NCBI GenBank assembly: GCA_016839915.1
Contig: JAEOTH010000125.1
Span: 1-64,000 of the forward strand
Direction of reading: 5' to 3'
Source of the DNA: Promethearchaeota archaeon
GTDB lineage: Archaea; Asgardarchaeota; Lokiarchaeia; Sigyniarchaeales; SOKP01
DNA: 64,000 nt
The notes beneath the pieces are model-generated. The model saw only the letters and a program-made list of their open reading frames with translations. It searched no databases and was not told where the DNA came from. This document shows, in pieces, positions 756 through 11,510 of the stretch. The position numbers and the translations under genes are program-made. Positions within the stretch are counted from its first letter, which is position 1. Each line of letters opens with the position of its first letter.

Positions 756-1796
756 TTAAATTATTTCTTTAAATGCTTCAAATCTTGTAATTAATTGTTT
801 ATATGATTCTCTATTGTATTCTATCTCAACAAATAGATATGGAATTTCTAATTCTTTAAACTTTTTACTAAAATAGGGATGATCATATAAAACTGGCTCA
901 CAGAATTTCTGAGCAATATTTATGACTCCATCAACATTATATTTTTTAGCTAAATCTTTTATATTTTCAAATCTTTTATAAGAAGGAAATTTAGTAGAAT
1001 ATATCGGCTTATTCAAATGATACTCTGCCAAAGCCTTGAGAGGTTCCTCAGTTTCATTAACATTTTTCCAAAAATATTTTGTTCCTATGCAGAGATCATC
1101 AATTACAATATGAAACCCTAGACTTTCGAGAAACTTGATGAATTCTGTATCATCTATTACCGAACCCGTTAATAAGATTTTTTTTAAGTTCTTATCTAAA
1201 TGTGGTTTCTGTGTTTTTAAAGCTTCAAGTCTAGATAAAAGCATCTCTAAAGCTTCATTTTTATCCATTTGTTGCACTCTCTTAACTAAAGAATGAAATT
1301 CAGAACCGTTCAATATCATTTTTATTCTGTACTCAGAAATTTCTCTTAATACTTCCCTAATTTGGTTCATTTTTTTTATTGCTTCACTAATTTTCTCTGA
1401 TGTTATATCCACATTAAAAGCTTCTTCCAATTGATAAATTAATTCTTTCATATCAGCAATAAAAAATTTTAGAGCAGCTTCATTGCGTTTCAAGGGAGCA
1501 TTGAGGAAAAATAAAAACTCAAGATCTATACATTCTAACCATATATCAAACTCTCGATTAGTACAATCACATCCATGCGTAGTGATAACCCCTTTGATTT
1601 CATCTTTAAACCCTTTAATTGCCTGTTCTAAAATATTTTTCGCCCATATACAATGATTTGGGGGGATATGCTCGTTAGCTTTATCAACTCCTATTGTAGG
1701 ATCTCCAAATAATCTAACAGGAACCATATCAGCAGCTATAATAATTTCTTCTGGGGTTTCAACGGAAGCATCAAAATATGCAATTTTTTCGATAAT
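756..1796 (-). CDS. Second 2-hydroxyacyl-CoA dehydratase family subunit, probable ATT start
   Basis: This is the partner of the neighbouring dehydratase subunit. It shares the family layout, with a GVITTHGCDC segment, a central helical region and a Rossmann-like half (KKILLTGSVI, then GFHIVIDDLC). The first in-frame ATG (1727) would cut off PEEIIIAADMVPVRL, the conserved N-terminal strand-helix of this family. The frame is open upstream to a TAA at 1871-1869 but has no ATG, GTG or TTG there. An AGGTGA Shine-Dalgarno at 1806-1801 is followed 4 nt later by ATT (1796-1794), then ATC. I take ATT as the start, giving 346 codons beginning MIEKIAYFDASVETPEE. Family assignment is confident; the start is inferred. 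Confidence 0.8.
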   Translation of the reverse strand: MIEKIAYFDASVETPEEIIIAADMVPVRLFGDPTIGVDKANEHIPPNHCIWAKNILEQAIKGFKDEIKGVITTHGCDCTNREFDIWLECIDLEFLFFLNAPLKRNEAALKFFIADMKELIYQLEEAFNVDITSEKISEAIKKMNQIREVLREISEYRIKMILNGSEFHSLVKRVQQMDKNEALEMLLSRLEALKTQKPHLDKNLKKILLTGSVIDDTEFIKFLESLGFHIVIDDLCIGTKYFWKNVNETEEPLKALAEYHLNKPIYSTKFPSYKRFENIKDLAKKYNVDGVINIAQKFCEPVLYDHPYFSKKFKELEIPYLFVEIEYNRESYKQLITRFEAFKEII

Positions 1797-2552: not shown

Positions 2553-2936
2553 ATGATAATCAATGATACAATAATAATCAATAAACTTAATAAAGAACTT
2601 GAAAGATTAGAAAATTTTGGAGAAATTGTTGGCTCTGCGATTGTAAACCGTAATGGGTTGCTAATATCTTCAAGATTACCTAGAGAGATTGATGGGAGAA
2701 AATTAGCATCAATGGCGGCAATTATGTACGCAAGCATCGAAACTGCTACTTCAAGTTTTAAAACTAATGAACTTAAGAATGTAACTGTGGATTATCAAGA
2801 TTATAAACTTACAGTTGTAACAATAAATGATGACGTAATTATAGTCTCATTATTTGATATAAATGCTAATTTAGGTTTAGTATTTATCGAGATTGAAGAG
2901 TGTATTAAAAATATTAAAGAAATCATTAAGATGTGA
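2553..2936 (+). CDS. Roadblock/LC7 domain protein
   Basis: A 127-aa single-domain protein. The Roadblock/LC7 fold shows as an N-terminal helix (NKLNKELERLENF), then strand VGSAIVNRNGLLISSRLP, then the long helix KLASMAAIMYASIETATSSF, then strands VTVDYQDYKLTVVTI and VIIVSLFD, and a closing helix. Asgard genomes carry many Roadblock proteins, which in other organisms act as scaffolds or regulators of Ras/Rag-like GTPases (for example MglB and Ragulator). Its TGA stop (2934-2936) is directly followed, in the same frame, by the coding region of the E1-like gene, so the two are transcriptionally and probably translationally coupled. Confidence 0.85.
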   Translation: MIINDTIIINKLNKELERLENFGEIVGSAIVNRNGLLISSRLPREIDGRKLASMAAIMYASIETATSSFKTNELKNVTVDYQDYKLTVVTINDDVIIVSLFDINANLGLVFIEIEECIKNIKEIIKM

Positions 2937-2942
2937 TGTATT

Positions 2943-3680
2943 ATTTTAACCGATAGCCAAAAGAAAAGATATTCAAGGCAGATAATATCACCTTCGATTG
3001 GGGAGGATGGCCAAGAGAAAATCTCGAATTTAAAAGTGCTTCAAATTGGTACAGGAGGTTTAGGAAGCCCTTTTGCTTTGTATTTAACAGCTGCAGGGGT
3101 TGGTGAATTGACTATTATTGACAATGATATTCTAGATATCTCAAATTTACAAAGACAAATCCTATATAATGAAACTCAAATTGGCGAAGCTAAGGTTAAG
3201 TCAGCTAAATCAATATTGAATAAGCTTAATTCAGATGTTAAAGTTAACGCTTATAGAGATTATGTTGATGAAAATTCCATAAAGAAATATCTGAAAGAAA
3301 AACATTATGATTTTATTGTAGATTGTAGTGACAACTTTAAAACTAAGTTTTTAGTAAATCAAATTGCTATTAAAAACAATCTAAAGTGTGTGATTGCTGG
3401 AATCAAGGATTTCTATGGGCAAATCATTACGATTAATCCCAAGATAAGCGCTTGTTATCACTGTGTTTTTTCATCTATTGAAACGCCTTCAGATAAGAGT
3501 CCCTTACCAGTAATTGGGGTTACTCCTGGAATATTAGGAACTCTAGAAGCTTTGGAAGTTATCAAGACTACGTTAGGCCTTCCAAACTTGGAAAATAAAA
3601 TTTTGATGGTTAATCTAATAGATTTGAGGTTTAATATAGTAGATATCATAAAAAATGAGAAGTGTTTTTGCTCTCAATAA
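2943..3680 (+). CDS. E1-like ThiF/MoeB/UbaA adenylyltransferase, probable ATT start
   Basis: This is an E1-superfamily enzyme that adenylates the C-terminal glycine of ubiquitin-like or sulfur-carrier proteins. The nucleotide-binding loop is QIGTGGLGSP, followed by IDNDILDISNLQRQ, with the arginine finger in the NLQRQ motif, and DFIVDCSDNFKTK. Paired cysteines (ACYHC near the middle and CFC at the C-terminus) fit the structural zinc site. The first GTG (3036) would delete the conserved N-terminal helix RYSRQIISPSIGEDGQEKI. The frame is open upstream to the Roadblock TGA but has no ATG, GTG or TTG. A GTGAT sequence 5 nt before ATT (2943) suggests that start, giving about 245 aa (MLTDSQKKRYSRQ). 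It could serve ubiquitin-like, thiamine or molybdopterin/2-thiouridine chemistry. Confidence 0.85.
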   Translation: MLTDSQKKRYSRQIISPSIGEDGQEKISNLKVLQIGTGGLGSPFALYLTAAGVGELTIIDNDILDISNLQRQILYNETQIGEAKVKSAKSILNKLNSDVKVNAYRDYVDENSIKKYLKEKHYDFIVDCSDNFKTKFLVNQIAIKNNLKCVIAGIKDFYGQIITINPKISACYHCVFSSIETPSDKSPLPVIGVTPGILGTLEALEVIKTTLGLPNLENKILMVNLIDLRFNIVDIIKNEKCFCSQ

Positions 3681-11068: not shown

Positions 11069-11225
11069 ATAGTTTATAAACATTCATTTTAGGCAATGAA
11101 AAAGTCAATTCGTTTTCATTTTAAACCTTAGTTCAGATTATTGGACAAAAATCCTTAATATCTCATTTTGATAATAGTTATCTAATAAAAAGTAAATTAA
11201 AAAATAAAAAAGGTTGTGATTTAAA

Positions 11226-11510
11226 ATTACCCAATATCGATTTCGGCTAACGGGTGTGCCCCCTGACCAAGCCATCAAGCTTATCGAGCTAGATCCAAAC
11301 AATTCGATAGCAGAAATTAAGAAAACTGTACAGCGTGAGTATAAGCTAAATCCAATATTAGCTATACAATTTATATTTAAAGGAAAGGTCCTACCAGATC
11401 AATTAAAGTTCGCAAAGATTGGAATCCATCCAAAGAAAGACGTTATAAAACTTTAGAGCTTTCCTCTAAGGTATAGAACGGTCATGGCTACGCAAGCGGG
11501 TGGATACTAG
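11226..11510 (+). CDS. Ubiquitin-like protein with diglycine tail, interrupted by a 30-nt bulge-helix-bulge intron
   Basis: A beta-grasp ubiquitin-like modifier. Strand 1 is QYRFRLTG, the alpha helix SIAEIKKTVQREYKL, and later strands AIQFIFKGKVLPD and IGIHPKKDVI. In the raw sequence the frame stops at TAG (11454-11456) without a glycine tail. The same frame resumes after it as V-M-A-T-Q-A-G-G-Y-stop. Removing 11449-11478 gives DVITVMATQAGGY, an 84-aa precursor with GG at 82-83 and a one-residue tail that would need trimming before conjugation. The first GTG (11256) would remove strand 1, so I place the start at ATT 11226, which has GTGAT 5 nt upstream. Whether E2, E3 or deubiquitinase genes lie nearby cannot be told; none is in the window. 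Confidence 0.85.
11449..11478 (+). other. Predicted 30-nt archaeal (bulge-helix-bulge) intron in the ubiquitin-like mRNA
   Basis: The fold was built by hand. Intron stem: 11450-11458 pairs with 11464-11472, nine contiguous pairs including one G-U, closing a 5-nt loop. Bulge 1 is AA|A at 11447-11449. The central helix pairs 11443-11446 with 11473-11476, four pairs including one G-U. Bulge 2 is AA|C at 11477-11479. On the exon side there is a G-G mismatch, then 11439-11441 (GAC) pairs with 11481-11483 (GTC). Cutting each bulge after its second nucleotide, the rule for archaeal splicing endonuclease, excises 30 nt, removes the in-frame TAG and keeps frame. The exon-side helix is weak, but all other parts are canonical. 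Confidence 0.75.

Follow-up and report, generated by a model that had tools for sequence, protein, structure and literature searches.

Comparison of orthologous sequences makes it close to certain that AUU, and less often AUA or AUC (together AUH), are genuine translation starts in the Lokiarchaeal lineage studied here. The recurring near-cognate start that had been proposed from three genes in a sequence-only reading of this DNA is borne out: it occurs in several gene families across the genus and in some sister genera, is enriched genome-wide, and is accompanied by a stronger Shine-Dalgarno sequence than is found at AUG-started orthologues. NCBI translation table 11 permits AUU, AUC and AUA starts, and the codons themselves are thus not new; what appears to be new is their conserved use across a lineage, and the presence of AUU at the gene for initiation factor aIF1. 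Lokiarchaea are relatives of the ancestors of complex cells.

The window – the whole stretch of 64,000 nucleotides that was analysed – comprises positions 1-64,000 of contig JAEOTH010000125.1 from assembly GCA_016839915.1 (Promethearchaeota archaeon; Lokiarchaeia). The genome to which it belongs (G000, the own genome below) is a fragmented metagenome assembly of 3.65 Mb in 221 contigs, with the window on contig C81. Comparisons drew on 18 other species of the same genus (g1) and on many members of the family (f1); more distant classes were compared by means of aIF1 patterns and orthologue alignments.

The E1-like gene (ThiF family, PF00899, 222.9 bits) occupies positions 2943-3680 of the forward strand and encodes 245 aa counted from an ATT at 2943-2945, a start that rests on orthologue alignment. 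A ThiF match alone is compatible with either a dedicated ubiquitin E1 or an enzyme of MoeB/ThiF type; close relatives of the gene in named records come from Candidatus Lokiarchaeota MAGs. The start region reads TGA TGT ATT ATT TTA ACC GAT, and the Shine-Dalgarno core GTGAT (2933-2937) lies exactly 5 nt before the ATT. The core overlaps the TGA (2934-2936) that closes the frame and that is also the stop codon of an upstream ORF in the same frame (2553-2936, forward strand; Roadblock/LC7-like, a family assigned by eye only): the two genes are probably translationally coupled. The first ATG, GTG or TTG is the GTG at 3036, within the Rossmann fold. At the codon aligned with the window ATT, 14 of 15 genus members have AUH (ATT in seven species, ATC in five, ATA in two), the sole exception being G014, which uses a nearby GTG; in sister genera the codon is ATG in nine cases, ATT in four, GTG in one and another codon in one. 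In most genus members (A/G)GTGA and a further 6 nt precede the start codon, and the TGA within that motif generally terminates the gene before it. Mapped onto the E1 tree, these states require four changes between AUH and NTG; ATT, ATC and ATA swap freely, with 11 codon changes on the tree.

The ubiquitin-like gene (11226-11510, forward strand) shows the same arrangement. Its start region is TGA TTT AAA ATT ACC CAA TAT, with the ATT at 11226-11228 and GTGAT at 11216-11220 (duplex -9.6 kcal/mol), again 5 nt upstream; an in-frame TGA stands at 11217-11219 and the first canonical codon is the GTG at 11256. The aligned codon is ATT in nine and ATG in four of 13 genus members, and ATT in four and ATG in eight of 12 other members of the family. 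Since four genus members have ATG, AUU is not essential in this gene. For both genes, then, the proposed ATT start holds: at the aligned codon relatives have ATT, ATG or, in the E1-like gene, ATC or ATA, behind a conserved Shine-Dalgarno sequence.

The ubiquitin-like gene of the window also contains a 30-nt in-frame insertion, AAACTTTAGAGCTTTCCTCTAAGGTATAGA (11448-11477, forward strand), that includes an in-frame TAG (11454-11456) and a 9-bp hairpin. The insertion sits between PKKDVI and TVMATQAGGY and is absent from the 29 relatives compared; PF00240 matches the homologous form without it, and the protein loses its GG tail unless it is removed. Many tRNA genes of the own genome (L260, L261, L263, L264, L266-L271), most of which ARAGORN misses, give matches of 100-112 nt to the tRNA model, a length that implies introns of about 30 nt. 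Since these inserts are of similar length, the ubiquitin insertion is possibly a very small intron of an archaeal mRNA, although it shows no canonical bulge-helix-bulge. One motif for the initiator tRNA gene, tried on the genome stretches examined, gave no match, which leaves some room for an altered initiator tRNA in this lineage.

The third gene encodes the D-component of a 2-hydroxyglutaryl-CoA dehydratase (HGD-D; PF06050, 269.6 bits). On the minus strand its start region reads AGGTGA AAAA ATT ATC GAA: the AGGTGA (1806-1801; duplex -8.3 kcal/mol) lies 4 nt before the proposed ATT (1796-1794), and the first canonical codon is the ATG at 1727. Here the near-cognate start stands, but its position shifts by one codon. 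The start ATG of most relatives aligns with the ATC at 1793-1791, as does an ATT in G002, where no canonical codon occurs before codon 24; the start is therefore probably this ATC (1791-1793, minus strand), one codon after the proposed ATT, and the gene would span 756-1793. For all three genes the coordinates confirm a frame open to the preceding stop, the absence of a usable canonical start, and the claimed spacings of GTGAT and AGGTGA. Sister homologues with ATG at another aligned position had been named as evidence that would count against the claim: in the E1-like and ubiquitin-like genes the ATG falls at the same codon, while in HGD-D it falls one codon later.

The 3' end of the own genome's 16S rRNA is GGATCACCTCCT (locus L264), so the assumed anti-Shine-Dalgarno sequence is correct, and the pairing attributed to GTGAT and AGGTGA agrees with it. 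The median duplex energy is -7.1 kcal/mol at AUH starts (n=51) compared to -4.35 kcal/mol at AUG starts of orthologues of the same genes (n=26; p = 7e-6), a difference driven by the E1-like and ubiquitin-like genes, there being none for the GPN-loop GTPase described below. AUG-started genes of the own genome have a median of -3.3 kcal/mol (n=337). Stronger pairing at AUH starts is the pattern to be expected if it compensates for a weak codon.

The frequency of such starts was estimated by a survey blind to homology, based on 1,667 genes predicted ab initio in stretches of five genomes (514 kb of the own genome and 400 kb each of G004, G009, G030 and G042). To be kept, a codon had to lie within coding sequence and to follow a Shine-Dalgarno match of 5 nt or more, counted as a full-length alignment, at a distance of 3-5 nt; in addition, its frame could contain no ATG, GTG or TTG upstream or in the next 12 codons. 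Six control offsets supplied the control sites. ATT was found at 13 of 36 sites compared to 8 of 141 control sites (Fisher p = 9e-6), and ATA at 4 of 36 compared to 4 of 141. The sequence-only reading had pointed to a genome-wide count of spaced ATT codons in genes whose family N-terminus lies upstream of all canonical starts; a count of a similar kind, in stretches of these five genomes, supports it. Among Shine-Dalgarno matches of at least 6 nt, ATT and ATA together account for 11 of 15 sites, and 14 of the 17 ATT/ATA sites share one common spacing. These sites fall in 17 of the 1,379 genes from family f1 (1.2%) and in none of 288 genes of G042, from another family (p = 0.04): AUH starts thus appear, on these counts, to serve about 1% of genes in this Lokiarchaeal lineage. 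When codons were counted at sliding offsets from loose Shine-Dalgarno matches and the counts pooled over the genus, the ATT excess was weak (p = 0.13); the clear enrichment emerged once the analysis was limited to genes without a usable canonical start. Looking for coding sequence that extends far upstream of every canonical start returned few genes and several masked stretches.

Genes with AUH starts are functionally mixed and include a GPN-loop GTPase, a ketopantoate-reductase-like protein and a pterin dehydratase. This mixture, together with the ATG of the ubiquitin-like gene in four genus members, leaves unsupported the earlier suggestion that the purpose of such starts is to keep ubiquitin and E1 levels low. 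The GPN-loop GTPase (G004; PF03029), one match picked from the survey list for an orthologue check, starts with AUH in 15 of 15 genus members (ATT in 12, ATA in three), the own genome included (G000:C53). Elsewhere in the family the start is ATT in four species, ATG in three and an ATG one codon upstream in one; in other families the position holds ATG or GTG, and the tree carries three changes between AUH and NTG. Only a few residues separate the start from the P-loop, which makes a far-downstream start impossible, while a TTG at codon 3 of four orthologues is a possible alternative. Two further genes, for an AN1-finger-like membrane protein of G004 (L150, minus strand, offset 15148) and a small protein of G030 (L249, minus strand, offset 11742), have CTG as their apparent start, preceded by GGTGA or GGTGG.

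The gene for aIF1 is itself AUU-started. The own genome contains a single SUI1 match (G000:C41:3027 onward, locus L319), whose closest PDB match is the aIF1 chain of 4MO0 (E 3e-27) and whose only Pfam match is PF01253; on both counts it is SUI1/aIF1, and a place in the IF3 family as an infC homologue was rejected, the likeness to infC being one of arrangement only. Counted from the ATT, codon 7 opens the zinc-knuckle motif CPICSFPKELCIC, and no ATG, GTG or TTG occurs before an ATG at codon 86. In all 14 readable genus loci (among L309-L324) the start region consists of AAGGTTGTGA, a few bases, and ATT AAA RAC GAC GA, and the leader and first codons are conserved at the nucleotide level. Codon 1 is ATT in 14 of 14, while all other positions among the first 60 codons that are Ile in all species vary at the third base; the GAC at codon 4 is invariant. 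A pattern allowing ATA, ATC or ATT gave 17 matches among 196 Asgard genomes sampled across the phylum, all of them ATT and all in genera g1, g2 and g6; an NTG version of the pattern gave no match in the same genomes. The pattern is narrow, so its silence in other genera reflects a diverged N-terminus and not a known ATG. Alignments and patterns together place the ATT start in 22 species (15 of g1, six of g2 and one of g6); in family f2 the start region has ATA in two species and TTG or GTG in others, and in f4 ATG. The Shine-Dalgarno sequence GGTTGTGAT lies 3 nt further from the ATT than in most other AUH genes, and because of this longer GTGAT spacing the aIF1 start is less well placed. RNAalifold predicts a weak structure in the leader (-7.1, z -3.5 relative to column shuffles), which we do not claim as a conserved hairpin.

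Two genomes depart from the single-copy arrangement. G014 has two aIF1 genes (L317, L332), one ATT-started and the other a diverged copy with an upstream ATG and GTG. In the single-contig G004 a long distance separates the N-terminal coding segment from the remainder (L312; G004:C1:1032042, 1385131), which stands behind a tRNA-like stretch and masked letters: a split gene, a second copy or a misassembly.

In Sulfolobus, according to work cited in PMC6237735, aIF1 discriminates against non-canonical starts. A factor that would reject such starts, and whose own gene is AUU-started, parallels E. coli infC, the gene for IF3. If the parallel extends to mechanism, then a strong Shine-Dalgarno duplex would position the 30S subunit such that initiator Met-tRNA pairs with the AUH codon at the P site, the first residue would be Met, and initiation would be of low efficiency; in some AUH genes, ribosomes that have terminated on the gene before may also re-initiate. 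By destabilising initiation complexes on non-AUG codons, aIF1 would set how often AUH starts fire, and with its own gene starting at AUU it would most likely repress its own synthesis, as IF3 does via the infC AUU. Other AUH genes (E1-like, ubiquitin-like, GPN-loop GTPase, HGD-D and others) would then be tied to the level or activity of aIF1. The sequence-only reading had suggested a tie to IF-type factors: one such gene is indeed ATT-started, which lends the suggestion real support. We consider the explanation as a whole – AUH initiation with aIF1 control and feedback – reasonably probable, and feedback of aIF1 on its own gene, argued from the analogy with IF3, the best reading of that gene, at slightly better than even. 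Somewhat short of even, and thus tentative, is the proposal of an aIF1-centred start-codon regulon, in which aIF1 would limit itself at AUU while conserved AUU, AUA and AUC genes, the ubiquitin-like modifier and the E1-like enzyme among them, would follow initiation stringency: a separately arisen archaeal counterpart of IF3 and eIF1 autocontrol.

The main rival accepts AUH starts as real but unregulated: start choice would be relaxed wherever the Shine-Dalgarno sequence is strong, with genes drifting neutrally into and out of the state. The mixed functions of the genes, the interchange of ATT, ATC and ATA in E1 with its 11 codon changes, and the toggling of the ubiquitin-like gene between ATT and ATG within the genus are all as drift would have it, and genes other than aIF1 fit it equally well. 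The aIF1 gene does not: its codon is exactly ATT, never ATA or ATC, in 22 species drawn from three genera, behind a strongly conserved leader, and it is the gene in which a non-AUG start has a known regulatory logic. We judge drift unlikely, though a serious competitor to control by aIF1.

That the starts are artefacts – of sequencing or assembly error, of pseudogenes, or of misplacement, with the true start lying downstream or in a different frame – is very improbable. The own genome is fragmented, and an out-of-frame ATG at 2936 precedes the E1-like gene of the window, but this ATG is not conserved; the frames are intact and conserved; a downstream start would cost the GPN GTPase its P-loop, or aIF1 its zinc knuckle; and numerous independent assemblies show the same state, with E1 genes of two single-contig, chromosome-level records (CP070805.1, CP070831.1) in the AUH set, so that sequencing error does not explain it. 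Equally improbable is a supply of the N-terminal residues by stop-codon readthrough, frameshifting or an mRNA intron carrying AUG: the window E1 frame does continue that of the upstream ORF across the TGA, and there are the apparent tRNA introns of ~30 nt and the ubiquitin insertion, but E1 orthologues have two or three consecutive stops before the codon (the TGA TAA TAA directly 5' of the ATC in G012 rules out readthrough in E1), the ubiquitin-like gene is not immediately preceded by a gene from which readthrough could come, and sister genera simply have ATG at the same codon.

AUH initiation has practical consequences: gene callers limited to ATG, GTG and TTG truncate or miss aIF1, the E1-like enzyme, ubiquitin-like proteins and the GPN GTPase, and several AUH-started genes figure in arguments about the origin of eukaryotes. 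It also opens a direct question, namely whether archaeal aIF1 represses AUU starts. In the titles, abstracts and passages of the open-access literature consulted we found no earlier report of AUU starts in archaea, of aIF1 autoregulation or of non-AUG starts in Asgard archaea. AUG, GUG and UUG are the starts listed in a review of archaeal initiation (PMC7531240), and Shine-Dalgarno sequences have been called rare in Lokiarchaea (PMC12993045). The genes described here resemble standard archaeal initiation in being Shine-Dalgarno-led on leadered mRNA, and differ from it in using AUH codons, tied to the minority of genes that have Shine-Dalgarno sequences.

Outside the archaea the closest likeness is to bacterial infC, through which IF3 autoregulates its own gene, from an ATT start in E. 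coli and an ATC start in Streptomyces (PMC5472188). As in E. coli, the gene for a factor expected to reject non-AUG codons is AUU-started in the case of Lokiarchaeal aIF1; unlike infC, aIF1 belongs to the SUI1/eIF1 family and to an archaeal host, the AUH set includes other conserved genes, and the feedback is presumed from the arrangement. Streptomyces sigR, whose GTC start is repressed by IF3 as shown by experiment (PMC5472188), offers a parallel for genes that do not encode the factor yet have a very rare start, here AUH as opposed to GTC; in Lokiarchaea a response to the fidelity factor would follow by analogy. The weak site on which eukaryotes rely is an AUG in poor context, with scanning. 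Autoregulation of eIF1 through initiation context is reported by Ivanov et al. (2010), as cited in PMC6237735. Lokiarchaeal aIF1 shares with eIF1 a homologous factor and a weak start site on its own gene, through which self-control would act, but the site consists of a near-cognate codon with a Shine-Dalgarno sequence instead of an AUG in poor context. Should the feedback prove real, start-codon fidelity factors limit themselves in each of the three domains, by codon devices that differ between them, and in an archaeon close to eukaryotes this happens at an AUU.
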